DNA from: Tetmemena sp. SeJ-2015
Lineage: Eukaryota; Ciliophora; Spirotrichea; Sporadotrichida; Oxytrichidae
Direction of reading: 5' to 3'
Length of the DNA stretch: 64,000 nt
Assembly (NCBI GenBank): GCA_027382625.1
Contig: JAJKFJ010021004.1
Location: forward strand, 1-64,000
This document shows positions 22,880 to 40,703 of the stretch, one piece after another. Numbering within the stretch: position 1 is the stretch's first letter; the number at the start of each line of letters is the position of its first letter. The notes under the pieces were generated by a model that saw nothing but the letters and a program-made list of their open reading frames with translations, searched no databases and was not told the DNA's origin. The position numbers and the translations under genes were made by a program.

Positions 22880-23145
22880 ACTATCAAACTGAGTTCCTTG
22901 CACACAGCAACATCATATTCACCAACGGTGACTTGGATCCATGGTCGGCAGGTGGAATAACCTCAAACATCAAGGGCAACGACAAGATAGTGTCAATTGT
23001 GATCCAGGGCTCCGCTCATCACTTGGAGCTGAGAGCACCAAACGCAGCTGACCCAGCAGGCGTAGTTAGCGCTAGAACCACCATCGCCACTACCATAGGC
23101 ACATGGATCAATGAGTACTTTACTCCCCCTACTTACTATCAGTGA
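22880..23145 (+). CDS. detached last coding segment (MDS) of the S28 serine carboxypeptidase
   Basis: This plus-strand piece encodes only the C-terminus of an S28 (prolyl carboxypeptidase-like) enzyme: TEFLAHSNIIFTNGDLDPW, then GSAHHLELRAPN, ending TPPTYYQ-TGA at 23143-23145. It contains the family's catalytic Asp (22936-22938) and His (23017-23019). There is no upstream peptidase sequence here. It begins with the 11-mer ACTATCAAACT (22880-22890), which is also the exact end of the peptidase block at 39197-39207 on the other strand. Joining the two at that repeat gives YFGGQNYQTEFLAHSNIIF in frame. A minus-strand BAR gene and a minus-strand CFAP410 gene flank it. Confidence 0.9.
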
Positions 23146-23492
23146 GTGAAAATGCACAAGTGTATGAGCAATGCTCTTCTGTGCATATCATATTAATGGT
23201 TTGATCTAAACGAACTTAGCTATCCAACAAATAATTCAATAAAAGTTAACTATTATAAACTCTAAGATAGATTAATAAAACTTGGAGGGGTGTGGGTGTA
23301 TTGATTATTAACCATTTAAGATAAATTAATACCAAAGATAGGCTAAATCTTAATTTCTAAGGCAAAGGGTAGTTAGGGCATTTATTCAGGGATTCATATC
23401 AGTATTCGTGTGAAAATTTAATATTGCTAGTAGTTAAAGGATTATGAGGTCAGTGTTGAGCTCTAAGTTATTATTTAAGGATTATTTTCTTC
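23146..23492. other. non-coding spacer
   Basis: AT-rich sequence between the stop of the detached S28 segment and the stop of CFAP410. No gene seen. It should contain the 3' end and telomere-addition site of the S28 macronuclear chromosome on one side and of CFAP410 on the other. Confidence 0.5.
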
Positions 23493-24620
23493 TCAATGTC
23501 TCTTAATCAATAAAACATTAAATAACATGATAATTTTATGGTCTCTTTTGACAAGCTCAAGTTCACTCTCACCTAACTCTTTGAGTAAAGCAAGTACAGC
23601 GCACAGTATATTCTCGTTTCTAGGTTCTGGAGCATCCTAATGAGTAGTTTACGATACTGTTAAATTAAATATGAAAAAGCAAAATGTTCTCTATGCGCTA
23701 GACTGAGAAACTGTACGCTCATTCTGTGCACTCCCCGGCCTCACAGAGTTAGGTTTTTTAATGATCTGTGGCTGCTGAACCTATTAGGTAGTAACTTGCT
23801 GCTACCCAAGCTAGCTGAGAGATTATCTCTGAGCCGAGGCTATCATAGACTGAGATTGCACGTTTGCTTGTTGATCTGCCAGGGACTTCTTCGGCTCAAC
23901 TCCTTTATATGGGGATTTCCCATCTCTCATTTAAGATTAGTTGGAGCTGATTTGCTATGGTTAGTTTTAGATAGAGTTATTCTACTGTAGGACTGAGACT
24001 TGAGAAGGCTTTCTTTGTAGCATGCTATTACTAGCAGCAGAACTTTAGCCGACATAGTTATTAGACAAGGCCACTTAAGATGGAAGCTAATTCTGATCCT
24101 GGATGGTTATATTTGAAGCTGGTCTCTTGCCTAGAGAGCTGGATCTATTAGTTGTGGTGATAGAGGAGGAGCTTGAGTGACCAGCACCAACTATGTGTTC
24201 CATATTCATGTACTTCACCTGCAGTCGCTCCTCTTGAGTGACCTCCGAGTTATCAAGCTTCACTAGGTTAGGGAGACTCTTGATAATGAAGGGCCTGTAC
24301 TGAGGGTGCTCCGAGCAGGGGTTGTGCGACAGCCATAGCACGCGCAAGTTAGGCAGGTTTTGTAGGTACCTGATTTCTGCCAAATCGCTCACCTGGTTTT
24401 TCCGCAGGTACAGCTCTGTCAAATTCTTGCAGGCCTGGAAGAAACCGAGTGTGCTGATCTTATTGAGCGAGAGGGAGACGATCTCAACGTTTGGCAAGTC
24501 TTAGAGTATAGACAAGTCATCGATGTCGTTACCCCAGAGGTTCAAGTTCTTGATCGCAGAGAGCTTGTCAGTTTTGCACTTTTGGAGAATAAGTTCCTTG
24601 GTAAGAGGCTTTTGAGTCAT
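23493..24620 (-). CDS. CFAP410: CFAP410 (C21orf2) leucine-rich-repeat ciliary protein
   Basis: A protein of 375 residues in one uninterrupted frame from ATG 24620 (MTQKPLTKELILQKCKT) to TGA 23493-23495. The N-terminal LRR region matches the family closely: LNLWGNDIDDLSILQDLP, VEIVSLSLNKISTL, LTELYLRKNQVSDLAEI, LRVLWLSHNPCSEHPQY, then LVKLDNSEVTQEE. A long Q/S-rich linker follows. Near the C-terminus is the short helical module typical of CFAP410 (ENILCAVLALLKELGESEL). The protein acts at basal bodies and cilia, with the NEK1 pathway in animals. No IES or intron is needed. An in-frame hydrophobic patch near 23660 (TFCFFIFNLTVS) is odd and might be an in-frame insert. Confidence 0.88.
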
Positions 24621-24757
24621 CTTTGATGAAATTTACCGTTTAATTCAAATTTAATTTATGAATCGCGAAATCGTAAATTCTTTAGAGAAGAAGAGAGAGA
24701 TAGAAATTCAGAGATGGCAGTGTTTGTGGGGTGAGTTAATATAATAAATTCCTCATT

Positions 24758-25549
24758 TCATATCTGTAAGGGTCGGGCTAATTCAGCCTTCATCCCATTT
24801 AGGAATTGCAATTGCTGATCCATAATCTGGTTCACTCCGAAGTTCTTGGCCTTCTCTTAGTTGTCACGGAACATCTTGACTCTGTATTCGAGACTTACAC
24901 TCTAGCCTTATATAGAGTTAAGCTTTGGCATATTCGATAAGTCTCTGAGAGCTGTTTATAATCTGTTGATGGAAGAAAAATAAGTTAATATTTTAATGGT
25001 CTTCAAACCAAGATCATCTTTGGGCAAGAGCTTAGAGGCGCAAGGGTTGGGAGCTAAAGTGTCTTAACCAGTGCCACTCTTGATTATTGCTTACCATTTC
25101 TATGCCTGTCTCTCCCTCTCTGATGTGCCAGTTATATGAGAGACATTATCTTAGATGAAGCTCGATGGAGTTTGGCTCAAGACCTCTGAGTTATTCACAA
25201 AATGAAAAGCATACGATCTATTCTTATTCAGAGACTTCTTAGCATTATCATTATCCTTCTTCGCTTTGAGCTTCAGATAGTTGTAGTCATTTAGAATCTC
25301 AGTCTCTAAATCTTGCTTCTGCCTTGGGATTACACTTTCACCAGCCCTTCTTAAGTTCTCCTTGATCCTTTTGAGGATTGCATGCTTATCGTTTGTGTTC
25401 TTAATCTGCAGTCGCAAGAATCTGAACTGAGTGCCTATCTCTAATTCTGTCTCTGCCAGCTTCATCTTCGCTTGCTTGCTCTCGGTATTACAATAAAACA
25501 AAAATGCTTTACTACTATTCGTCTCCACCTGGATCTTGATCTCAGCCAT
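24758..25549 (-). CDS. coiled-coil protein, 263 residues, unrecognised
   Basis: A single open frame of 264 codons from ATG 25549 (MAEIKIQVETNSSKAFLFY) to TGA 24758-24760. It is helical and charged (LRLQIKNTNDKHAILKRIK; YRVKMFRDNQEKAKNFGV). No IES is required. It stands between CFAP410 and the CEP164-like gene, all on the same strand, with a 16-bp gap to the latter's stop. A ciliary or basal-body role is only suggested by the neighbours. Confidence 0.65.
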
Positions 25550-25565
25550 CTTTCATATAGAAATA

Positions 25566-27963
25566 TCAACAAACAAGTATTTAAACTCTCTTCATCTCCT
25601 TCTTTATCTAGGAGGTGGATTTGAAGTCATCATAAAGTCGCTGAACCTTGGACTGAGTCTTGAATAATTCATTTGCCACGAAAGTCCTAATCTCTCTCAA
25701 CTTATACTAATCTATTAAGTCATAGGCCCCACTTCTGATCGAGCCGTCGTTATCAGAGAGGAAATTGAGTTAATAAGAATAATAAACATTAAGCTTGAAG
25801 TTGCCTACTGATGTCTGAGGAGACTCTATCTGGACTAAACATAGCACTGTGATTCCTATTCCTCTAATTCATAGTCTCATTTATGTTGCTCTGGAAACCT
25901 AGGTCTGAAAATCTGCCTGCTTGCAGGTCTGGAGACTTGTTCACTTGCCTCTATCGCTCTCTGTGCATTTAAGAAATGTAGGTCATGCTGTTATCCTAAG
26001 AAAATACATATTTAAGAAAGTATGGGAGAGAGTGGTGGCTTATTGACATTTTGAAGCCTATTGAATTCCATACTCATGTTCCTATTTGACTTTCTGTGCT
26101 GGGACTGTAACTCCTCATCTGTGTAATCAAGAATCTATCTCCGCTACTGCTACTCCTACATCATTTAATTTCTCTGAGTTTTGACCTGCTCGATATCTCC
26201 AATAGTAATGAAGTCCTTCCTCTGCTGTAAATTTGCAAACTAAACCTCTCCTTTTTCCTCCTCCAGTTCTTGATTTTCAGCATGTTAATTGATACCGAGC
26301 TAGAACTCAAGCATTCTCTTTTAAGCCTCCAGAGAATTCACTTGCACTCTAGTTTAATCAACAAAAGCATGTACCTGCCTCAATTCATCCTTCTCCTGAA
26401 TCTCTCGATATCTGTCTCTCAAAACTTAAATATCCCTTTCCATTTCTTACTCAATAGACTTTTTATTTCGCTCGAATTCATCTTGCTTAGCATTTTTAAT
26501 GATCTCTATCGCCTTCTCTTATTACAGCTTTGGATACATTTCTTCAAGGTGCTGATCAAACTGGCTTTACAAAGCATGCAGTTTGTCTGCTTTCAGCTTT
26601 ATGAGTTGATCTCTGTTGCTCTCTCTCAGTTCTTCTAAACAAATCACTTGAAAATTGTAAGTTCATGCATGAATTATAGTGACGATGAAAGTTTATATAG
26701 TTGTCAAAGTCTCTATACACTTTCATCTTCTCTTTTTGAAGGTCTCTTTCATTTGAAGTTTGACTTTCAATCTTAGGAGCTCACCTTAATTCAACTTCTT
26801 CTACTTCAGACTTTTGACATCTGTGGTGAGTTGCCTCTCCCTCCTCTCATATTCATCCTCTAGGTTACTTTTGATCTTCTACCTCTCATTTTAAAGTTGT
26901 CTCTAGAATTCCTGCATGCTTTACTAAAGCTAGCTCTCCATCTGTCTCACTTCTTGGCTGTGTCTTTGCTTGTATTTTTACTCTAGTTGCTTTATTTGTC
27001 CTTGTAAGTGAGACTTGTCCTCATTCACTGCTTGGTCTCTTTGTCTGCTCTTTAAATACAAGATGTGGGATACTATTACTACTTGAATATAAGCTCTTCT
27101 CGATTTCAAGCTCAAGTTGAGATTCAAAAAGCAACTTAACCAATGTTCTACTTAATAGTATGAAGATTGGTATTTGTGGCTGATGAGTTGACACTCCGAG
27201 TAGTGCTCATTCTTCAGCTCTTATTGCATCCTGGCCTACGAAACCTCAAACTCCTGCTCTTATTAAAGCTCCATCTCAAACCTTTATCTGCTGTTGTCCA
27301 TCTTCAGTTGCTGCAGCTGTAGATTGAACTGAGCCCTCCAGTTGGCCTTGGTAGTCATGGATTTGAGTGACGAGTTTTTGCTGCATCTGAACTCTGTTTT
27401 GCATGATAGAGTCGAACACTTGACAGAAGGTGTCATAGCAAAGGGGTGTGTGATCACCTCGAAATCAGGGATAGTCTGTAAGCAAGAGGCTGGGAGGATT
27501 GAAAGTGGAGCAAGTGGGTCTATCATGACTGGGATCTAAATCATTTGATGAGGAGGCAAGCAGCTGAAGTAAAGCTCCCTCTAGGCTAGAGCTCTGAAGT
27601 AAGGGTCTAGCGGGTGCTCCTCGGTTAGCTGTTGAGTGTAGGGGTTCAAATATAACAGCTTCTGATTTTGCGAATCTGGAAGTGAGTGCTACTGCTCCTC
27701 TGGCCTTGCTTATTCGTTACTCACGAAGACTTTCCAACCCTCAGGCAGATCAACTGTGATTGCGTACTTCGCCAACCACCTGAGATGTTTGTCTCTATTT
27801 TCAAGGTCCAGTCCCAAGGTTTGTCCATAGATGATGATCTCTTAGTCAGTGGGATTTACACTCTCTCGATGTGAAACTGGAACCAGCTCTTATTAAGATA
27901 GAAATGAATGAATTGAATAGGCTCATTGTAGAAGATCTCTTCTTAAGCTTGCATGTTCATCAT
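25566..27963 (-). CDS. CEP164-like WW-domain coiled-coil protein
   Basis: From ATG 27963 the N-terminus reads MMNMQAQEEIFYNEPIQ. After a frame shift comes YGQTLGLDLENRDKHLRWLA, then LPEGWKVF and YLNPYTQQLTEEHPLDPYFR. The order (GI/LD..., WLAK, LPxGWK, Y-N-x-xT, HPLDxxFR) matches the single WW domain of CEP164, a basal-body distal-appendage protein. The rest is coiled coil (QRDQAVNEDKSHLQGQIKQL; QFDQHLEEMYPKLQQEKAIE). It ends SQIKKEMKRVQILVC-TGA at 25566-25568. Several IESs break the frame; one of 19 bp at 25774-25792 is resolved. Other WW/coiled-coil basal-body proteins remain possible. Confidence 0.65.
25774..25792 (-). other. very short IES, pointer TTAA
   Basis: TTAA at 25770-25773 and 25789-25792. 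Deleting 19 bp changes frame correctly and joins RQLQAQ to LNFLSDNDGSI. Another junction nearby is possible, so confidence is moderate. Confidence 0.6.
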
Positions 27964-28076
27964 TTTTTATAATTTAAAAACCAAACCTCTAATTCGCTAA
28001 ATCTCATCCTCTCATTGCTCTCTTAATCGCTGCTTACTCAATGTGTGAGATGTGAGAGACTTTTCAAAATTAATGT

Positions 28077-30826
28077 TCATATTTACAGTTGACTGTTGAT
28101 AATGTATTGCCGGTTATTACTTGTTTCTTGAGAATTCTAACTTATACTCTCACTCCCGCTATTCCATCTAGTACTATTAAATGCCTGATCTTCAGGGTAC
28201 AGCTCATCCTTGTCTCTGAAAAATTCTGATATCTCGTGAGCCACCCAACGCCAGCCGTACAATACGAAGTTCCTAAAGCCATAAACGTTGAAGTAGAAGG
28301 CCACCCAGAAGCCGACCATCAACAGTCCCATCACGAGGAAGGAGATGAGGAGGCAAATCCAAATTCTGCGCTTCCTCTCTTAGTGCTCCTGCTTGTACTC
28401 AAGCTGCATCATCTTGTCGTTGTTGTACTTGGCGTGGTGGTCCTCGTCAAAGAACAGGTCCATGTCGTCGAACTCGGGGTCGTTCAGGTTCAGGTTGGTC
28501 CCATTGTTGAAGTCCTTCAGGTTGGTGCGGACGTTGTCCTTGCGTATACGGGGCAGCTTGATTATGTACTGCGCCTCCTCGTAGGAGATGACGAAGGGCT
28601 TGACCATGTCCTCAGCCTTGATGTCCTTGGTGGTGTCTTTGATGAGGGTGAGGCCTGATGTGATGTTCTGCTACCTCTTGAACTCCTCCAGATCAAACTC
28701 GCTCTCCTTCAGCTCAGCCTCAGACTCCGTTGGTAAGAAGCCGTTCAGAGTCTCAGTCTTGCGCTGCAGCTTCATGCTTTGACCTATGTGCAGCTCGTGT
28801 CAGCCTATCAACCTGCTTTACAGCAAGTTCTAGTTGGAGGACCCCTCCTTGATTCATTATAATACGGATAAAGATAGTAGGATCTTCCATGAACTGAGTG
28901 AATTCGTAGCTGCAACGGGCGTTAAAGAAGTTCGGGTCTCCTTCTTGGTTGTTGGCACGGTCTCCGCCTCCATGTCGATCACCTCCACCTCGTAGTCTTC
29001 CTCATCCTCGTCCTCCTCATCATCGTCATCGTCGTCGTCCTCATCATCGTACTCATCGTCGTCATCATCATCGTCATCATCCACATCTGACTTCTCACTA
29101 TTGATGGAGGAGTAGCTAGAGCCCTTTCTGAGTGCTCTCTTTATCCTTGGCGACTTATTGAATTTAGTCAATGGAGCAGTACCTGAATTCCTTAGCAAGT
29201 AGCCTCCATAGAGACTTTTCTTCCCTGGCACAAAGGAATACTTTTGAAAAGAGAGCCTTGGCGACTTGCTGTTCCTTCGCCTAATCCTGGCTCCACTTAG
29301 TGGCTCTTGTATGTTAGTAGCATGCAAACCCATCCGCTTTACATCATGAAGCTTGGGATCTAACCTCTGTTCCAGGATTTCCCTGAAGGTGTTCCTCCTT
29401 TATAGTGGAGGATTTTACTCCTGCAAGTTGATCATTAGGTCCACAAAGTCTTTGAGATAGCGTTTAGAGTTCACGAAAACTATTCCATAGGTCATCTAGC
29501 TAATCAGTGAGTATTCTATTGCATTGCCTAGTGGCTTCTCCTCCTAGTAAGAATTTTGCTTCTTAGTGCTCTATATTTACTGGGGTGGGTTCACGACCTT
29601 GACAGACTTCATTTGCGTAAGTTAAATGCTTCCAGTTACTGCCACTTCTTCAAGTTGTTTCTTCTTAGCCCCACTCAGCCTCAATCAATAATCTCAATTG
29701 TAAAAATGCTGATGAATGATAGATCATATTTAAGTAAAGACTGACTTCGTTTGTGGGATCACTAAGTTCTTAGAATTGTCTATCAAGTACGTAAAGCTCG
29801 ATCTCTGCGGCTGTGGCTTGAAAGTATTATGCGAGCTCTTGATTTTGTGCGGCTAGATTTCTGTAGTGGCTGAATCCCCCGAGACATCAGTGTGCACAAC
29901 TTGGGGTTTCCGCATATGGTAGGTGCTAATGAGAATGGGGATGAACACTATCTTTAGAAACAGGCGATTTTTGTAGCCGAAGAGCTCCCCCACCTCACAG
30001 TCAATTTAGTGACTCAGGAATCGTAAGTCCAGTAGTTTCTTCTTGGGCGCTGGACTCTCCAAGGGCTTTTTATCTGGGGACAGCAGGGTGAACCGCCTGT
30101 CAAGGGGACCTGAAAAAGGAGTTTAAGGCCCTTAAGGGTTACTTGGCTCAGGAGCAGTCGGGGCTGCGAACAGTTCCTCAGGCGCAAAGTGGTTCTTGTT
30201 CATCACGTCCTCTTGGCTTGTCTTTAGATCGAACGATTCCATAATGTAGAGCGTGCCATCACCTCACATCATCATTCTTGACCACAGATTACGAATAAGT
30301 AATCATCATTATCGTCATCTTAACAATTTTCACTCTCTTAATTAGATTGAGGGCGAATTTCTGCATCTTCTTTTTCAGGTTGGAGAGCTTCTCGCTCTTT
30401 TCAATCCTGAGTTCCGCACTCCCAAAAATAACCATTTCCTTGTCGTTCAGCAGATTGAAAACTATAGTCAGCCACAGGTCGTGCGACTCCAACTCTATAA
30501 GCACTTCCTCACTGTCGTGCAGCACATTGCCCACTATTTCAAAATCCTAGAGCAGACTCATCGTTGTCTTCTTGACTATCTTAGTTGCCTGGAGGCCCCT
30601 GAGATTTCTGTAAAGCTCATAGTGGCTTTCCATAACCTCGCCTATTCGTTTTCGCAAAGTGGCTATTGTATCCTTCTCAGAGATTTCTATCATACTCTAA
30701 ATAAAATCGTTATTGCATTTAGAAATGAGAATAATAATTTTTGTTCATAGTGGACTTATTCGAATCAGACTCAAGGGTGGCCTTTATATGAATCTGTCCC
30801 TTATTGAGATAGCCCTTGGGATCCAT
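28077..30826 (-). CDS. large acidic single-pass membrane protein, unrecognised
   Basis: The start is ATG 30826 (MDPKGYLNKGQIHIKATLE). A conserved-looking N-terminal part follows (ISEKDTIATLRKRIGEVM; EVLIELESHDLWLTIVFNLL), then FDLKTSQEDVMNKNHFAPEE, a serine/basic segment, and a strongly acidic run at about 28985-29090 with long D/E stretches. Near the C-terminus one transmembrane helix (LLISFLVMGLLMVGFWVAF) is preceded by RKRR. The tail ends INSQLQI-TGA at 28077-28079. IESs are likely at several points; a 20-bp candidate is at 30264-30283. Fold and function unknown. Confidence 0.6.
30264..30283 (-). other. candidate 20-bp IES, pointer ACC (GGT on the coding strand)
   Basis: ACC at 30261-30263 and 30281-30283. 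Its removal joins YLFVIC to GDGTLYIMESF and removes an in-frame TGA. The segment could also be read as a 20-nt GT-AG intron, which would be unusually short. Confidence 0.5.
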
Positions 30827-31157
30827 TTATATGAAAATACCGTCCAGGTTAGAAATGAGGGAGGATTAGCAAAGCAGATCTTGGGAGTCATTTAGCCGCC
30901 TCAAGTCTATTTAATTTTTAGATAAGAACATTTCTTTTTTATTATAAATTAAATTAAAGCGACATAATCGATAATTACTACTATCATATCTATATTGTTA
31001 ATATTATCTCACACACTTGATTGCTGCTGCTTTCTGTACTTTATTATGAGATTGTTGTTGTTCGTGCGATCAAGGAGTGAGTCTTCGCTCTTTATTAGTA
31101 TAATCCGATCAGAGTCAAAGAGAGAAAGTTCCCTCTCTTCCAACTCCACCCCCTCGC
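30827..31157. other. intergenic, AT-rich
   Basis: Non-coding spacer between the start of the acidic membrane-protein gene and the stop of the PP4 gene, both on the minus strand. Nothing recognisable. Confidence 0.5.
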
Positions 31158-32152
31158 TCATAAGAAGTACTCTGGTGCGGGTTTCTTAGCGGGGACGCCT
31201 CTGGCCTCTTGAGGTGCGGCCTCGAATATCTTATAGTTCTTGTTAAGGTTTTCATCGAGTTCGAGGATGGCGGCCACGTTTCCGCATCTGTAACAGTAGT
31301 TGGGGGCCGACCAGACAGTAACGAGCGTCTTATCGAACATCTCTTTGTAGCCTTCCATGACTAGCTGATGCGCCCTGGCTATCAACTCCACGTTATTAGT
31401 TCGGTTAAATTGCTCCACGATGTCGCCGCCGAAGAGGTAGCCTGCGCCTCTGGGGCTCATGCTCCAGCCGCTTATGTCGTCTGGGTCGGACCACATGAGG
31501 TCGCACATTGCTCCATCGTGCGGCACCTCCTGCTTACGGTCGATCACCTTAATCTCGTCCAGAGTCTGAATGGAGGGCGAGAGTCCTCCATGCACGCAGA
31601 AGATCTTCTCATCGATTATTGCAGCCAGCGGCAGGAAGTCGAAGATCTCAGTGCAGTAGCGCCAGACATTCACTGAGCCGTACTTGCGTAGGCACTCATC
31701 GTAGAAACCATACACCTGCGTAATCTGTCTGCTCTCGTGGTTGCCTCTAATGAGGGAGATGCGATCTGGGTAACGGACTTTCAGAGCGAGCAGTAGCAAG
31801 AAGGTCTCCACTGAATAGAAACCGCGGTCCACAAAGTCGCCCATGAAGATGTAGTTGGTCTTTGGGCAATCCCCTCCCACCTTGAATAGCTCCATCATGT
31901 CGTAGAATTGACCATGAATATCTCCGCAAATCTATACTAGTCAGTTAGACAAGAACAAATTTCTTAAATTTCTAGCTCTCAATGAGAGTTCTAAGGTTTT
32001 TTACTTACAGTGATGGGGGAGTAGATGTTTTGAATGTTAGACTCTTCCATGAGGATGTCTCTGGCCTTGTTGCACAGCTCCCTGACTTCCGACTCTTTGA
32101 TGCACTCGCAGCGCTTCAGCTGCTCAATCTGTCTATCTAACTCCGATGGCAT
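31158..32152 (-). CDS. PPP4C: protein phosphatase 4 catalytic subunit
   Basis: A Ser/Thr phosphatase of the PP2A group, 305 residues (animal PP4c is about 307). ATG at 32152 ([16 protein letters not shown]). A 77-nt GT-AG intron (31932-32008) splits YSPIT from [11 protein letters not shown]. All metal and catalytic motifs are present: GDIHG, GDFVDRG, RGNHE, HGGLSPS and [11 protein letters not shown]. The C-terminus is PEYFL-TGA, matching the PP4 tail that is recognised by regulatory partners and carboxymethylated in this family. [20 protein letters not shown] supports PP4 over PP2A or PP6. No IES present. Confidence 0.96.
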
Positions 32153-32500
32153 ATTTAAATATATATTATAGACCTATTTCAAAATATTGGGTGAGCCTTT
32201 TACTTACCCAAGCTTACTCAAATATTTAAATATGTTTGATTTCCCACCCCTAAATAATCATAACTTTTGTTCAGAGCTTGACAATAAAGTTAAAGAAGAA
32301 AGATCTTTCTTTGTGGAATGAAAAATTAAAGTTGTTTGAAAATAAAAAGTAAACTGTTGTTGGTACTTATTTGATGTGATGATGATGAATTTGTGTTTGT
32401 GTTGATGTTGATATAGTGAGTGGGGAATTAATGACTGGAGTTTTAACTTAGTGTTTTAGATTAATTTGGATTGCAGTAGCATTGAGTTCAGTCATACTTA
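32153..32500. other. intergenic spacer
   Basis: Non-coding, with TG-rich repeats near 32375-32415. No gene seen between the PP4 start and the ABC transporter stop. Confidence 0.5.
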
Positions 32501-35500
32501 TCAGCTAGTCTTGTCGAGGAGCTCTGCACTCTGATCCTTTTGATTTAGCTATTGGGCACCGCCTCCATTCTTCTTAGTCTTTCTCTTGACTGTGGTTCTT
32601 TATCTGGCGTTCTAAAAAAAGAGAATTAACTTTAAAATTAATTTCAAGATATCAACTTACCCCTTTCTCAGCCTCCTTGGCGAAGTTATTGAAGATCTGC
32701 TCTAGAGTAGTCTGAGAGACTGAGTACTCGCTGATCTGGTACTGACCCTTGATGTCCTCCATTAACCCGAACAGATAACCAATTATTCATGACATTAATA
32801 TCACATCCCTCTTTTATTCAATTGAGTAGTTGTCTCTGCTGACCTTGATCTTGTAAGAGCTGTTGTAGTGCTCCAGCACCTCTACTGTCTGGAACATCTG
32901 CTCGAACTTTTCGAGCACAGCTCCTCCGTTTTGCTCTGTGAAGGCCCACCTCACGAGCTCGTCAACTGCGATAGTGGCATTTCCATTCTGGAGCTGCTCA
33001 AAGATGTCTCTGCCCAGGCCGTCCTTGGTGATCTCAGAGATGAGGTCACCTGCGTTAAGCTTGTTAAGGATACCCTCCACTTGGCTGTAGCCCACTGGCT
33101 GGTCATCGATGTTATTGTCTGCCTTCAGTTGATCGAGCTCCTCTTGCTTCACATACCTAATCTTGACTTCGATCTCATAGCCAGTACCGTACTTGGTCTT
33201 GATGTGCTGTGAGGAACCGAAGCACTTGAATCTTCCAGAGACCATGATACCCATCTTGGTGCAGAGAGCTTCTGCCTCCTCCATGGAGTGAGTAGTAATG
33301 ATCACAGAACTCTTCTTTCTCATGGTGGAGATCTTGGAGACAATGGTCCACATGAATCTCTTAGCCTTGGGGTCTACTCCAGTACTGGGCTCGTCCAAGA
33401 AGACAATACTAATCACATAGATTGATAGATAAAGTTTATCATTATCAATTGGAGGGTTACCGATCATAGCCATAGCCACTGAGAGCTTTCTCTTGTTTCC
33501 TCCTGAAAGCTTCTCAGCTCTGATTTTCTCGTACTCTCTCAAGTCCATCTCATCAAGTTGTCTCTCGACGATTTGCTGTCTCACTCCTCTGAGGACACCC
33601 TTAACAGCTGCATAGAATTCGAGATGCTCTCTCACTGTCATGCCGTCGAAGATGGCGTCAAACTGAGGACAGTAACCAATCAGCTTTCTAGCTCTTTCAA
33701 AGCCGCTTTGAGAGGTGACATCGAATCCATTGACTGCTACATCTCCTGAAGATGGAACCTCCTCTCCGATGAGGCACTTGAAGGTGGTAGTCTTTCCTGC
33801 TCCTGACACTCCTAAGAGCGCAAAGCACTCTCCATACTCCAGGCCAAAGCTGACTTTCTCCACTGCGAGTGTCTTTCCATAATACTTCTTGACTCTGTTA
33901 AGTCTGACAGTGCAGTCTTCTGGCCTCGTTTGTGCCACTCTCTGCTCCTCCTCTACTATGTCTTCATCTTCTGGGATTACTTGCTCCTGCTGCTGGAGTA
34001 GCTCCATTTGTCTTCTGCCTCCGAAGTACCTGAACTTGAGCATGGCCCAGAATTTCTTCTCAAAGCTGACCACTAAGATCCAATAGATTGCGATGTCGAC
34101 CAGTAGGAAGATCACACTAGGGCCTGCGACTGCCATGTCGAGTGGGTCGTAGGAGGTTCTATTCTCCACCACTGCGAATACCTTTCTGCTTGCAATGTTC
34201 TGCACACCGAAGTTGAGGGAGAAGATGGGGAAGATGTAGAAGAACCAGCGCACCACTTTGCCAATAGTGACTGTGCTCTCGAATATCTCCAGGAACTGAA
34301 CTGCTAAGGGGATGATACCTCCTAGCAAGATGTAGAGTAAGCGTGTGAGGATAGACGCACCTCCCTCTGTCTCGAACAGGAAGGAGAGAGTATAGACGAA
34401 GACTGGATTCACGAAGATGAAGATGAGCAGGATTATCCAAGCCTCTGGGATATCCAAGTCGAATACCTAGATACCAATATTGTAGAGAGTTTAAAGGAAA
34501 AAGTCTAACAAAATCATAGAATTTGCTAAAATTAAGTATCTTAAATTCAATTAACAGAGATAAAATTTAACAGTTCATTTAATTTTTAAAATCACTTCAT
34601 TTCACCTTTTTATAGGAGAAATTAGGACTGTATTCAAAAGTAGATTGAGTTTCACTTGAGGAATTTGAATGAAATGAAGGTGTGAGCGGTGGTATTTTAT
34701 CTGCTTCAAGTATTTGCACTTTAAAAAAGTTTAAAAGTAAAGTTTTTAAATATTTTTACTTTTAATTATTTTGAATTGTAATTAGATACTGCTTCCTTTA
34801 TTTCAAATGTTGATATTTAAGTCAATCATGACTGATTTTTACTCTGAGCTATAATAGCGCATATTAAAATAAGCATATTGAGGGTGGAGCCTGGAAAAGT
34901 ATGTCTACAAGATAGTGAGATAACCAGTAAGCGGGGATACTTGCTCCACTGATGATCATCTGATTCTTGACATTTCTCTTTCTCTCAGCTATGATGTTTG
35001 TGATAAGAGAATTGGAGATCATCATATACGCGATAGAGAAAAGAATACTTGACGAGGTACCAGCTGCTGCAGATAACACACTACTCTCTCTCAAAGTTAA
35101 GGGGAAGGGTGTATCTGTCATCTTCAGCTTGGCTGTATCTTTTCCAAGAATATCTTTAAGGAGGTATTCGTAAATTGAATAAGAAATATAAAAGCATACT
35201 TTAAATTGCACCCGAGTAAGCAGCCACTGCATCTTGCGAAGTAACATTAGCATATTAGAAGATAGCGTAATTCTTCTTAACTGAATCCATCTAGTAGAAA
35301 TAGTAGTTGCCAAAGTAAGCTTAGCCAACATCGTTAGAGGCAGAGAAAATGGCATCATCTAAAGCGAATAGCTAATCTTGGAAGTTGGCATTTGTAGGTG
35401 CATCCTTCAACACAAACTTAGAGGGCACTTCCCACTCTGAGGCATTCACCTTATCAAAGTATGAGGAAACGAAGGTGTCACCATAAGGAGAGTTGTACTG

Positions 35501-38500
35501 AAGTGGATTTGGAGATGGGAAAATAGTTGGAGACATCAATCTTGGATGACCATCCTTCAAGAACTTAATAGTAGATAGACCGAGGCCAGCGAAGATGAAG
35601 GCAATAGGAAAGAGCAATTCAATTAGCAAGGTTCTGGGATCTCTTACTTGAAGCAAGAACTTTTTCTTAAGCAGAGCTCTCAAGTTAGTGAAGAATATAA
35701 CCATGGGATCAGATTCATGTTGTTCAGCGATCGAGTAGTCGTCAAGATTATCCTTAGCAGCTTATCCTAGATCCTCGAGTTACGAAGACTCTTTCTTGTT
35801 TTGCTTCTCAAGAGTAAATTTCTTAAGCTCTTCCTCTCATCATCCTCAGCTTCCCTTTACCTATCTTGAGGAACACTTCTTCCAAAGTTGTGATACCAAC
35901 TCCATATGATCTAATGCCGAGGGCTTCTAAGTTATTATCAAGTTCGTTGAAAAACTCTTTGAATTGAGAGCTTGAGGCAGTTGGGAGTTGGAAAGTCATC
36001 TCACTTGAGACTTCTTAAAGGTTCTTGACACCTTCGATTCTTGTGTAGATGAATTCATCGACTTGAGGTGCGGGTTCTCTTGTCTTCTTTGCGATGACCA
36101 AGTTATAGCCAACTCCATATCTGTTCTTAAGGAAGAGAGAGCTACCGCAGCATTTAACCTTGCCCTCAGCCATGATACCGATTCTATCTCCTAGGATATC
36201 AGCCTCGTCCATGTAATGAGTAGTGAGGATAACGATTCTTCCATTCTTGTTCTCCTTCAGCATTTCCCAAAGTCTTCTTCTTGAAGAGGTGTCCATACCT
36301 GAGGTAGGCTCGTCCAAGATAACAATCTTTGAGTTGCCGATCATGGCGCATCCCACTGAGAGCTTTCTCTTCTAACCACCTGATAAAGTTCTTGCAAGTT
36401 GGTTCTCAACAGACACTAGATCTATGTCCCTAATCATCATTAAATATCATGATGATGAGAGTTTCAATCATCTTTTCAACTTAGGCTGGAATCTCATTGG
36501 AAGGAGTTCCCTTGAAAGCAGCGAAGAGTGAAAGATGCTCTTTGGGAGTCAAGAACTCAAAAAGCACATCGTGCTGTGGACAAACTCCCAAAATCTTTCT
36601 CATGTCATCCATCTCGTTGAAGATGTCGATGCCAAAGACTGAGGCTTTACCTTTGTTTGGCTCGAACAAACCAGTAAGCATAGAGATAGTAGTAGTTTTA
36701 CCAGCTCCGTTATGACCTAATAGTGCGAATATTACTTTAAAACTAAGATAAATATCTAGCCGTTGTACATAGTCATGTTTGTATTGTCTACAGCCACTTT
36801 GGCTCCAAACTCTTTTCTAAGACCTCTTATCTTTAAGCAGTCATTGCTTGCTTCTTATCTTCTCAAGACTTCAGGAACAGCTTCAAAATCTTCTGGATTT
36901 CTATTCTCCTCAGCGTCTGGAGCAATTTCAGAGTTAATGAGTAGAGACTAAGAACCTTCTTGAACTTCATCATTCACAGGTCTTCGGTTTCTGTTGCGGC
37001 GTCCAGAGCACCAGAAGTTGCGAGTGCAGAGGAAGTACCACTTCTTGGCGACTCCATACTGAGAGGGAATCACAGAGTCTAAGTAAAGTCCCAGGAAGAA
37101 GTAGAAGAATGTGTCGAAAATCTTTTAAAAAATGCTTAAATTCATTTATAATCAGTGCTACAACACTGGAAGTCAAATATTTACTCTGAGCTATCATTAA
37201 AAGATTTTAGAAGTGTAGGTAACATTTTGGAATAGGATTGAGGAATTGGAGAAACTTAGTCCAGTTGAATCATTCTCAAAGTGGAAAAGGTTGTAGATAC
37301 AGAAGGACATTCCCACATTAGGGAAGATAGACATGCCTACCTTCACGTTTTGAGCTGTGTCTGCGTCTCTTACTGCGAATACGATGAAGTAAGTCACGAT
37401 GTGCAAGAGTGAGGCAGCTGTGGCTGAAGCTCTTTGAGTAGGCAGGATAGCCACGATGCAAAGTGAGAAACCGAAAAGGGAAACACCATAGAAGAAAGCC
37501 ATCACGAAGATCAAGAACTTATTGCTGTTCACGAAGACGTTGATGCTCAGCATTCCCATAATGATCAAAGCCATGAAGAAACAGATGACTACATGGAAGA
37601 CTCCCCAACTCAAGAAGTAGCTAGTGTTAGTGAGGCCCATCATCTTCATACCTTCTCTAGACTTGGATTCTTTCTCCTCAGATAGCTTAGCTACTATATA
37701 ATAGAGAGGGATTAGGAAGGTGAACATCACGAAGAAAGGAAAGTTCTGTGACAGCTAATCAGCCACGTTAGGATCAACTGAGTTGAATGAGGGGGTCTTC
37801 ATGGGCATGTAGGCCATTTCTATCTTTGCATCCTTGCCCTTGGCTTCCAAGATAGCTTTAAAGATGACTTGGTATATTCCCAAGAAGCCTGTGTTCTTGT
37901 ACTTGTCCCAGTTGTCCCAAGAGGGGCTTCTGAGCTAGATATCAAATGGCTGTCTGTTGGTGTCTGGGACATTTTGCCTCAGGTAAGATACCTCGAAGTC
38001 ATACTCGTCATTCATAAATGGGAAATAAGAACGACGCATCATTCACAGTATCGAAGGTATTTACTTGAAGAGCAAAGCAGAACGTATCTTTGTTGGTGGT
38101 CCTGATAATCTCAAACACTTCAAAACGTATCCATATAATCAATGAATCTAATCAAGTTTTTAACTTCATCTCTATCCTTGGCCTTGAACTCTTTCATGCC
38201 AAAAGACTCTATAACAAATCAGGTTTAATATTGAGGATACGAAACTAAAACGAGATCCTAAATATGTCCTAGGAGGTTGCAAGTATGGAGGGGAATCATT
38301 CAGTTTCATCTTACCTAAATATGTGATCGCCGATGCAAAGTTCTCCTTCACTCAATAAATTTAATGAAAAGATAGAAGTCATTCATCTTTTTAACTTTGA
38401 ACGTAGTTATAAGAATAAGTTTTGAAAGTTTGAAATTTTTAGTTTATAATCTTAATTATTGAGGGTTGACTGAGTCCTCAGCCAAAATTTAAAGCAAGTA

Positions 38501-38975
38501 TTAACTTTTAAAAATGGTGAAGTTCTTGAGGCCTGGGTACAAACAGTTGAGCGTGGAGGAGAAAGAAGTAACGTCAAGCGTAGCAATAAACCCTCCAAAC
38601 TTTAAAAAATAAGTCTATTAATTTCGGATCTCTATAATTTATCCGCAAAATGTGCTGATTTTATTGTGTCGGGTGTGTAGTCATTAGTACTAGTAAAGTA
38701 TTAACATTAAAAAATACGATTAGAAAGATAGGGTTTTAATTATACCAAGTTTAAAATAGACCCCTAGGTGAAAGTTGAGTTAAGAACTCTAAGAGCTTAC
38801 TGTCAAAGTTGTGTTTCTCGGGCGTGCTGCCATCAGAGAGTAACGCCTTCACGATTGTGAAAATCCCCATAGTCAAGATGGGTAGGAGTATGAACGTAAT
38901 CAGGAAACAGATGTTGCGGCGGAGGGTGATAAAGTTCTTTTTGAAGAGAACTTTAAAGTGGGTCCAATTTACCAT
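32501..38975 (-). CDS. ABCA-type full ABC transporter, IES-interrupted
   Basis: A two-TMD, two-NBD lipid-type exporter in the normal order on the minus strand. The N-terminus is [19 protein letters not shown] (ATG 38975). A large lumenal loop and TMD1 follow ([20 protein letters not shown]). NBD1 has [21 protein letters not shown] and [14 protein letters not shown]2 begins [20 protein letters not shown]2 has [24 protein letters not shown] and [12 protein letters not shown]. The C-terminus has [18 protein letters not shown], an ABCA signature, ending LLDKTS-TGA at 32501-32503. GT-AG introns: 32612-32660 and 38209-38314. Five short IESs are resolved below. Longer AT-rich inserts lie at about 34480-34865, 37115-37205, 38345-38500 and 38590-38750. 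One-base shifts near 38030 and 38125 look like errors. Confidence 0.92.
32785..32823 (-). other. IES in ABCA gene, pointer CAATT
   Basis: CAATT at 32780-32784 and 32819-32823. Removing 39 bp (which holds a TGA) joins SRDNYSI to [14 protein letters not shown]. Confidence 0.88.
33408..33449 (-). other. in-frame 42-bp IES between signature and Walker B of NBD2, pointer CAAT
   Basis: CAAT at 33404-33407 and 33446-33449. The insert is a multiple of three without TGA, so the germline reads straight through and adds 14 residues. Removing it gives [13 protein letters not shown], the canonical motif. There are no GT-AG ends. Confidence 0.9.
34480..34865 (-). other. long IES (about 385 bp) in ABCA TMD2
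   Basis: AT-rich, stop-containing sequence between ILFQAPPS (then [10 protein letters not shown] in another frame) and [14 protein letters not shown]. Both sides are ABCA membrane segments, so the block must be removed. The pointer was not fixed; boundaries are approximate. Confidence 0.65.
35178..35208 (-). other. IES in ABCA gene, pointer TAAATTG
   Basis: The 7-mer TAAATTG is at 35171-35177 and 35202-35208. Excision of 31 bp joins AAYSGAI to [11 protein letters not shown]. Confidence 0.9.
36438..36471 (-). other. IES in ABCA NBD1, pointer AATCAT
   Basis: AATCAT at 36432-36437 and 36466-36471. Excision of 34 bp joins AQVEKMI to [19 protein letters not shown], just before the signature motif. 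Confidence 0.88.
36733..36755 (-). other. IES in ABCA NBD1, pointer AATAT
   Basis: AATAT at 36728-36732 and 36751-36755. Excision of 23 bp joins MTMYNGQI to [13 protein letters not shown], immediately before Walker A. Confidence 0.88.
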
Positions 38976-39196
38976 CTATTAAATTAATTATTCTATGAAG
39001 ATGGAGGACGAGAATTTATAGTTATCTATCTTTCACATACGCTCCTGATGTGCAGCTTATCTAATCAAATTCTATCTCAAAACCAGCCTGTCCACGTAAT
39101 TCCGTTTATTTATAGATGAACAATCGATGAATCTCACAGAGTGCACAAGTGAAAATTAATAAAGACTATAGAAAGTGATGGCATAAGTTATGCTTG

Positions 39197-40703
39197 AGTT
39201 TGATAGTTCTGGCCACCGAAGTAGTCCCAAACCCAATCACTTTAAAAGTGTATAAAAGAATAATTGTTCCAATCGTATCTAGGAGTGAGGCCGAACTGCT
39301 TCACGCATTGAGCAGTATAAGCAGTTGCGTCGAAGGGGTCGTTGGGGATGAACATTGAGTCTTGACCGTTGGTGGTTGGCATGGCGAGTTGGTTACATGC
39401 AAGCACGTCCCAGCCAGCACCGTCAAGTTGACCAGTTCCATCAGTGTTGGAGATGTCGTTGCAAGGAGTCTGGCCATTGTAGTTGAAGTAGATATCAGTG
39501 GCTGCCTTGATGCCTTGTAGAACTAGGAGCTCTCTAGCTGATAGGTCACCTAAACTAATCCATGCTTAGAATGGCAATCATTCTAATGAAGAAGGAGGGT
39601 TAGATTTCCTTTGGCGCTCTTCTCGTCGCTAGGTGCAGGGTAAGGAATATATAAAATTTAGCTGAGCTTATCGCAGGCGGCGTTAACTGGATTGGCTGGC
39701 ATGGGTTGAGGAAGGAGGTGGGGTATGGGTAGTCAGTCATGGCCATGTAGGAGAAGCCGTTCATCAAGAGGGTGTAAAGGCTGTCCACGTCGTCGGTAGT
39801 ATTGATCTTCTGGCATGTGTTGAACACCTTGCCTAGGGCGTCGAAGTCAGCAGGTCTGCTCTTGATGGCAGTCATGTGTTTCCAGCCTTCCGAAATGATC
39901 AAGGGGCAGTTAGCGTTGGCACTAGCATAGTCCTTAGTAATGATTTATCCGAAGGAGTCTTATGGGATGCCTGAGTCCATGAAGTAGAGGATAGGAGCTG
40001 AGGAGGCATAAGCACCCTGGAAGGTCTGAGGGTACTTCATTCTGAGCCAGGAGGCAAGCATGCCACCATAGGATCCTCCGAAGACGATGACAGGCTTGTC
40101 AGCTGCGCCATAGAGGTATCTGATTTCCTTCATGAGCAGGACGTAGTCCATCATGGCCTGATCCACAGTAAGCCACTTGTTGTGGTCCTTGTCGAGGGCG
40201 ACGCTCTTGTCGAAGGGGAAGCTGTCTCCGAAGTATCTGTGCTCTCCGAAGATGATCAGCGCCTGGTATTGAGGAGCGAGCACGTCAGTCAAGAAACCTG
40301 AGTTGTCCCAGAATCCCTCAACTCTGCCTTCATCTATATATAGTAGAAGAAGATTGGGCCCTCAAGGGGATTCCAGTCAAAAGAAGATCTATAATTATGA
40401 CATGATGATAGCTGCATCTTATGCATACAGTAATGAATTTACTCTCTACAAGATAAAATGATGCAACTCTGCCTTCGTTTCCAGCGTAGAAGAAGATAAA
40501 ATAGGGAGAGGTGGATTCCAGTACTCAGCGCTAGCAAGATACCTAATTGAGAACTACTGGCTGTTTCCACCGCTAGCGAAATGGTCGAGGGGCACATTGA
40601 AAGTGTACTAAGTTCTCTTGAGAGGATAGCCACCTGGAGGGGCGCAGCTGCTCTATCCCAAGAAGAGAGATATTATTGCACTTGTAAATAGGATTCTTTT
40701 CAT
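39197..40703 (-). CDS. S28 serine carboxypeptidase (prolyl carboxypeptidase-like), scrambled; lacks its last segment here
   Basis: A lysosomal/secreted Pro-Xaa carboxypeptidase-type enzyme. ATG 40703 opens MKRILFTSAIISLFLG, a signal peptide. The nucleophile motif FGGSYGGML (Ser codon 40071-40073) lies near residue 162 of the rebuilt protein, as in the family. Further motifs are IIFGEHRYFGDSFPF and, after one missing C near 39705, NPMPANPVNAACDKL. The block stops at an 11-bp pointer (39197-39207) before the Asp/His region, which is found only at 22880-23145 on the other strand. Segments 1-4 near the 5' end are out of order (1-3-2-4). IESs with TAG and CCAATC pointers lie at 39545-39603 and 39239-39274. 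Rebuilt length is about 506 residues, against about 496 for animal homologues. Confidence 0.92.
39239..39274 (-). other. in-frame 36-bp IES in S28 gene, pointer CCAATC
   Basis: CCAATC at 39233-39238 and 39269-39274. The insert adds 12 residues with no TGA. Removing it gives TPRYDWVWDYFGG, matching the family. Confidence 0.85.
39545..39603 (-). other. IES in S28 gene, pointer TAG
   Basis: TAG at 39542-39544 and 39601-39603 (coding strand CTA). Removing 59 bp joins SAKGNL to SARELLVLQGIK in frame. Confidence 0.75.
40319..40522 (-). other. scrambled MDS cluster 1-3-2-4 of the S28 gene
   Basis: Three long pointers each occur twice (plus-strand forms). GGATTCCAGT is at 40513-40522 and 40368-40377. 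GTAGAAGAAGAT is at 40486-40497 and 40343-40354. CAACTCTGCCTTC is at 40464-40476 and 40319-40331. MDS1 ends at 40513, MDS3 is 40464-40497, MDS2 is 40343-40377 and MDS4 starts at 40331. Spacers are 15, 86 and 11 bp. Joined as 1-2-3-4 the coding strand reads AEYWNPLEGPIFFYAGNEG then RVEGFWDNSGF, a perfect S28 motif. Read in germline order it is nonsense. Confidence 0.95.

Follow-up and report, generated by a model that had tools for sequence, protein, structure and literature searches.

The window analysed here is a stretch of 64,000 nucleotides from the ciliate Tetmemena sp. SeJ-2015 (GenBank assembly GCA_027382625.1, contig JAJKFJ010021004.1, positions 1 to 64,000). It carries a gene for an S28 (Pro-X carboxypeptidase-like) enzyme, of which a block on the minus strand (40703–39197) ends at the 11-mer ACTATCAAACT. 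Very probably this is a scrambled gene of a hypotrich-like ciliate, in DNA that is likely germline (micronuclear): its last piece sits in inverted orientation 16.3 kb from the block, with about six other genes in between, and would be joined to it at ACTATCAAACT in macronuclear development. This reading is carried by direct observations on the repeats, the reading frame, the homology of the joined protein and the paralogs in the same genome. A preliminary description of this DNA had placed the last segment of the gene in inverted orientation 16 kb off, and the gap between the two copies of the 11-mer indeed measures 16,306 bp (22891–39196), with the minus-strand block on one side and a plus-strand piece on the other.

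The gene consists of seven pieces (macronuclear-destined segments, MDSs), and a repeat, or pointer, flanks each junction, with one copy kept on joining. Along the window, from left to right, the order is piece 7 (inverted), the six genes, and then pieces 6-5-4-2-3-1; the block is therefore scrambled in itself, and its first pieces read 1-3-2-4. Piece 1 (40513–40703, minus strand, as are all pieces of the block) runs from the ATG to pointer 1 (ACTGGAATCC, 10 bp). It is followed by piece 3 (34 bp, 40464–40497), which extends from pointer 2 (ATCTTCTTCTAC, 12 bp) to pointer 3 (GAAGGCAGAGTTG, 13 bp), and only then by piece 2 (35 bp, 40343–40377), which connects pointer 1 to pointer 2. Piece 4 (39608–40331) spans the stretch between pointer 3 and AGG, a tentative pointer of 3 bp, and contains a one-base frameshift; piece 5 (39269–39551) extends from AGG to the 6-bp pointer GATTGG, and piece 6 (39197–39238) from GATTGG to the inverted 11-bp pointer ACTATCAAACT. 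Piece 7 (22880–23145, plus strand) supplies the C-terminus, with its LDPW and AHHLEL motifs and a TGA stop. The pointers at the scrambled junctions measure 10–13 bp and those at the simple junctions 3–6 bp.

Put together at the six repeats, pieces that lie out of order and out of orientation rebuild one S28 reading frame. The joined DNA of 1,520 bases is open from ATG to TGA except for the single-base shift, and it encodes a protein of 506 residues when two frames are read in turn. A 7-bp repeat, TCAGCTA (39535–39541 and 39659–39665), was tried as the junction of pieces 4 and 5 and was dropped for AGG; it would delete residues that homologs have. The first protein model, of 485 residues, was built with the TCAGCTA junction, and the later model of 506 residues with AGG.

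The two copies of ACTATCAAACT are the only exact ones in the window, and they are inverted: the upstream copy of pointer 6 ends the block at 39197–39207 (minus strand), and the downstream copy starts piece 7 at 22880–22890 (plus strand), just as the preliminary description had it. From 22880, piece 7 encodes YQT-EFLAHSNIIFTNGDLDPWSAGG and onwards up to the TGA at 23145. When the block is joined to it, the protein reads FGGQN-YQT-EFLAHSNIIFTNGDLDPW in a single frame, since the copies of ACTATCAAACT overlap the codons Y-Q-T. The 11-mer repeat by itself is weak evidence for the join because the window holds 1,468 inverted pairs of 11-mers; when 61-bp pairs were drawn at random, 27 of 20,000 draws had an exact word of at least 11 letters in common. 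The weight of the junction comes from the position of the pointer at the homology break and from the retention of the frame. Of 120 homologs, 116 span the junction, and 27 of these have no net insertion or deletion over the 20 residues around it. Among the ten ciliate or ciliate-like rows (five of them environmental), nine have a net insertion or deletion of zero, and Blepharisma has one extra residue. Identity to one homolog (P0001) is even along the gene, at 50, 53 and 50% for pieces 1–4, 5–6 and 7.

The claim that the distant piece encodes the missing C-terminus also stands. The joined 485-residue model matches the human lysosomal Pro-X carboxypeptidase (PDB ID: 3n2z) over residues 35–478 (E=5.3e-99). 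The S28 family match is full-length, with the Ser motif and the C-terminal LDPW and HH motifs. We take LDPW and AHHLEL to bear the catalytic Asp and His, both of which the enzyme would lack if piece 7 were not joined. Among 7,985 candidates scored, 2,273 database entries matched this model. Environmental proteins score highest, with identities of up to 62%; among named ciliates, the best matches are to Strombidium (44%), Moneuplotes (43%) and Stylonychia (41%).

We looked for other S28 genes in the organism's own assembly (146 Mb, 5,213 contigs). All seven candidates were scored, the candidates being limited to those of a first look, and six matches to the joined protein were obtained: four are pieces of the window gene, and two belong to one other locus (C3117:80320–81716). 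This second locus is collinear and has its own tail with LDPW and HH motifs. A short in-frame insert that resembles an internal eliminated sequence (IES) lies within its NIIFSNGNLDPW motif. In the tree, the C3117 gene is sister to the Stylonychia S28 proteins (100/100). The window gene falls in a seven-row group together with five environmental proteins and one from Strombidium (99/97; 99/96 with letters taken straight from the locus). It is nearer to Strombidium than to Stylonychia, and we read it as an old paralog. Because the C3117 locus has a tail of its own in collinear order and groups separately in the tree, piece 7, as judged from these comparisons, is not the missing tail of that paralog. 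A full-length paralog owning the 22.9-kb piece, which the preliminary description had named as a finding that would overturn its reading, did not turn up, as the only other S28 locus found in the assembly is already provided with a tail. Apart from the window gene, no tail-less S28 locus was listed in this search.

The swap of pieces 2 and 3 is a second scrambled knot in the same gene, confined to 204 bp. Two copies of a 59-bp unit lie here on the minus strand. Copy A (40464–40522) keeps piece 3, and its piece-2 part has likely decayed; copy B (40319–40377) keeps piece 2, and its piece-3 part has likely decayed. Three pointers are common to both copies and occur in the same order, with inter-pointer stretches of 15 and 13 bp, and of 9 and 11 bp, in the two copies. 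The copies share eight 10-mers, and only one of 5,000 random 59-bp pairs shared at least three. MDS and IES thus form pairs here that share their pointers and are similar in length (59/59 bp), as in odd–even scrambling, and such length-matched pairs are described as a sign of duplication and decay (Feng 2022, PMC9797194; here and below, statements from cited papers refer to the parts of them that were available). The 1-3-2-4 knot likely arose from a tandem duplication of approximately 59 bp followed by complementary decay.

Two further features bear on the nature of the DNA. TAA and TAG are read as glutamine inside conserved domains. The assembly contains 67 matches to C4A4 telomere-type repeats, many of them overlapping, and nine of the matches listed are at base 1 of a contig; as the C4A4 pattern reads the same backwards, the control was uninformative. 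Such contig starts include bases 1–20 of C298 (21,168 bp) and of C586 (15,687 bp). Together with the affinity of two genes, the C3117 S28 gene and the CFAP410-like gene described below, to relatives of Stylonychia, these features lead us to regard the organism as a hypotrich-like spirotrich.

Several observations weigh against the join of piece 7 to the block. At the junction, 63 of the 116 spanning homologs lack four residues, and human PRCP is of this four-less type; a further 19 have one extra residue and seven have other offsets. Median identity over all spanning rows is uneven, at 43, 37 and 50% for pieces 1–4, 5–6 and 7. Decayed copies of piece 6 or piece 7 beside the inverted junction were sought because a duplication model would leave them, and none of the four comparisons rose above the 95% mark of 300 shuffles. 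The joined junction, in which the sequence on the 39208 side and that on the 22891 side would read GGCCAGAACTATCAAACTGAGTTCC across the pointer, had no exact match in viral contigs and no match in the own assembly with up to two mismatches allowed; its absence from the assembly would be expected of a germline-only assembly. A tree built from just piece 7 placed it in no clade, and its scores against other S28 proteins (150–214) favour no single one. Finally, the one-base frameshift of piece 4 lies in a short C run at CTCAACCC (approximately 39700–39712, minus strand). It is likely a sequencing (homopolymer) error, and the join to piece 7 leaves it unexplained.

The same frameshift suggests that small errors may exist in the assembly, and a larger one would account for the arrangement if the gene were truly contiguous and a 16-kb block had been placed backwards between the 11-mers. 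A block inverted between inverted repeats is a known type of assembly fault. A repeat of 11 bp is, however, very short for misleading an assembler, and it is one of 1,468 such inverted pairs in the window. Both ends of the block would need breaks exactly at the pointer, and a single misjoin would leave the 1-3-2-4 knot of the same gene unexplained. We therefore regard an assembly error as quite improbable. It is a little less probable still that the gene is dead, an ordinary chromosomal inversion having broken it and its assembly having been lost. The frameshift would fit a gene of this kind, as would the lack of a macronuclear product in the viral contigs and the own assembly. Both parts nevertheless retain conserved motifs and a similar identity to their closest homologs, and piece 7 is open until its TGA. 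Moreover, the break coincides with an exact in-frame pointer in a gene that has five more pointer-type junctions, one of them tentative. That the 22.9-kb piece is part of a different S28 gene, the tail of the window gene being elsewhere, is the least credible alternative: S28 is a small family here with two loci found, and the piece-7 tree and scores leave room for it, but the only other locus found and scored has its own tail, which in the piece-7 tree groups with Stylonychia without piece 7 (91/87, below the 95/80 mark), and no further tail-less locus was listed among the candidates scored.

For the interval between the two pointer copies, the preliminary description had counted six whole genes. 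Completeness was observed for two of them, is well supported for a third, and is likely for the other three. The gene for the catalytic subunit of protein phosphatase 4 (PP4c; 31158–32152, minus strand) is complete. Its protein of 305 residues matches full-length homologs throughout when a likely GT-AG intron (32008–31932) is left out. This apparent intron is unlike the repeat-bounded inserts of the S28 and ABCA genes. A gene for a CFAP410-like leucine-rich repeat protein (23493–24620, minus strand) is apparently complete, with 375 residues from ATG to TGA; its two nearest matches are a Stylonychia protein (54% over 97%) and a EukProt entry (56% over 96%). The third is an ABCA-type transporter (32787–38975, minus strand), which has its domains in order and broken frames. 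Its final part matches the structures of ABCA4, ABCA1, ABCA3 and ABCA7. A likely IES of 42 bp, in frame and bounded by ATTG, lies at approximately 33449–33404 on the minus strand, immediately ahead of the LDEPSTG motif in the second ATPase domain. Both PP4c and the CFAP410-like gene lie entirely inside the one IES that separates pieces 6 and 7, as expected of a nested locus, and for the ABCA gene the same is supported by domain order only.

The other three are defined by less distinct features, all on the minus strand. Coiled-coil-like open frames without a family match occupy 24758–25868, and a CEP164-like gene, which matches CEP164 structures weakly (E=0.0021), occupies 25877–28011; the limits of both are approximate. 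At 28077–30242 lies the gene for an acidic protein in which a likely membrane segment was recognized by eye; no family scored above its curated cut-off, and the upstream limit of the gene is unsure. Upstream of it, an open frame at 30262–30744 (minus strand) is either its start or a separate gene. The earlier assignment of all interval genes to the minus strand agrees with a count of 240-bp windows (n=129): 46 look coding and 45 of these favour the minus strand, the codon table having been trained in part on the PP4c, ABCA and CFAP410-like frames of the same interval, so that the count is not independent.

The preliminary description had also held that the assembly path of the gene spans six others and needs an inversion. 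The inverted distal piece and its matching pointer agree with this, and the six genes need not be removed. Because the pointer copies are inverted, the topology is such that one inversion would complete the S28 gene and flip the six genes without removing them. A single intramolecular inversion of 22891–39196 at these pointers would set piece 7 beside piece 6, and the six genes would merely be turned round, intact, and come to lie beyond piece 7. We infer that the cell uses this single-inversion route. The flipped genes would subsequently be cut out as chromosomes of their own. The small IESs would probably be removed first, since simple IESs are usually removed ahead of inversions in the actin I gene of Stylonychia (PMC2394655). 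RNA templates from the old macronucleus, whose guidance has been reported for Oxytricha (PMC5940158, PMC9797194, PMC2394655), are assumed to guide the join.

We tentatively suggest that one 11-bp pointer bridges six whole genes here, and that one 16-kb inversion both completes the S28 gene and flips its passengers unexcised, thereby physically coupling the development of seven independent chromosomes. If true, this bridge would be wider than the described pointers that bridge two and three other loci (Feng 2022, PMC9797194). The locus offers a clean test case for pointer recombination over long, gene-filled distances and for inversion versus excision: under an inversion model one expects an intermediate with the six neighbours flipped yet intact, which an excision model does not predict. 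Local scrambling, in the form of the duplication-and-decay knot, and far-reaching scrambling coexist in it.

The S28 locus is a large example of an already known kind, as nesting, inversions and multi-locus bridges have been described in spirotrichs, and nested and inverted pieces have been documented there genome-wide (PMC5940158; PMC10901763). Its width is notable, one inverted pointer covering about six genes. Nested pieces of other contigs are present in 1,301 of the 15,811 macronuclear contigs of Oxytricha (8%), and the deepest cases comprise five nested genes (PMC5940158). As in the nested loci of Oxytricha trifallax and Tetmemena (PMC5940158, PMC9797194), the gene pieces flank complete nonscrambled loci and a long pointer joins across them; unlike those described there, the S28 locus shows a single layer, a gap that holds about six genes, and an inverted distal piece. 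The label of a 'Russian doll' locus, proposed earlier, fits loosely: in the strict sense it means layers within layers of nesting (Braun 2018, PMC5940158), and one layer was found here, in an analysis that did not look systematically for further long-range links. The pointer lengths follow the spirotrich trend of longer pointers at scrambled than at simple junctions (PMC9797194). The actin I gene of Stylonychia lemnae is likewise scrambled with inverted segments, and its assembly needs deletion, inversion and reordering; in contrast to the S28 locus, its IESs measure 15–64 bp, which leaves no foreign genes between its pieces (PMC2394655). Strombidium cf. sulcatum also has inverted coding pieces in its inversion-type scrambled genes. 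Inversions account for 69.4% of its scrambled chromosomes, nesting has been counted in four species, and, in contrast to what is seen here, many whole genes inside one inverted gap are not described for it in the available part of that report (PMC10901763). The 1-3-2-4 knot, with its common pointers and length-matched IES and MDS, resembles odd–even scrambling by duplication and decay (the model of Gao 2015, via PMC9797194), and it differs in being very small, with pieces of 34–35 bp.

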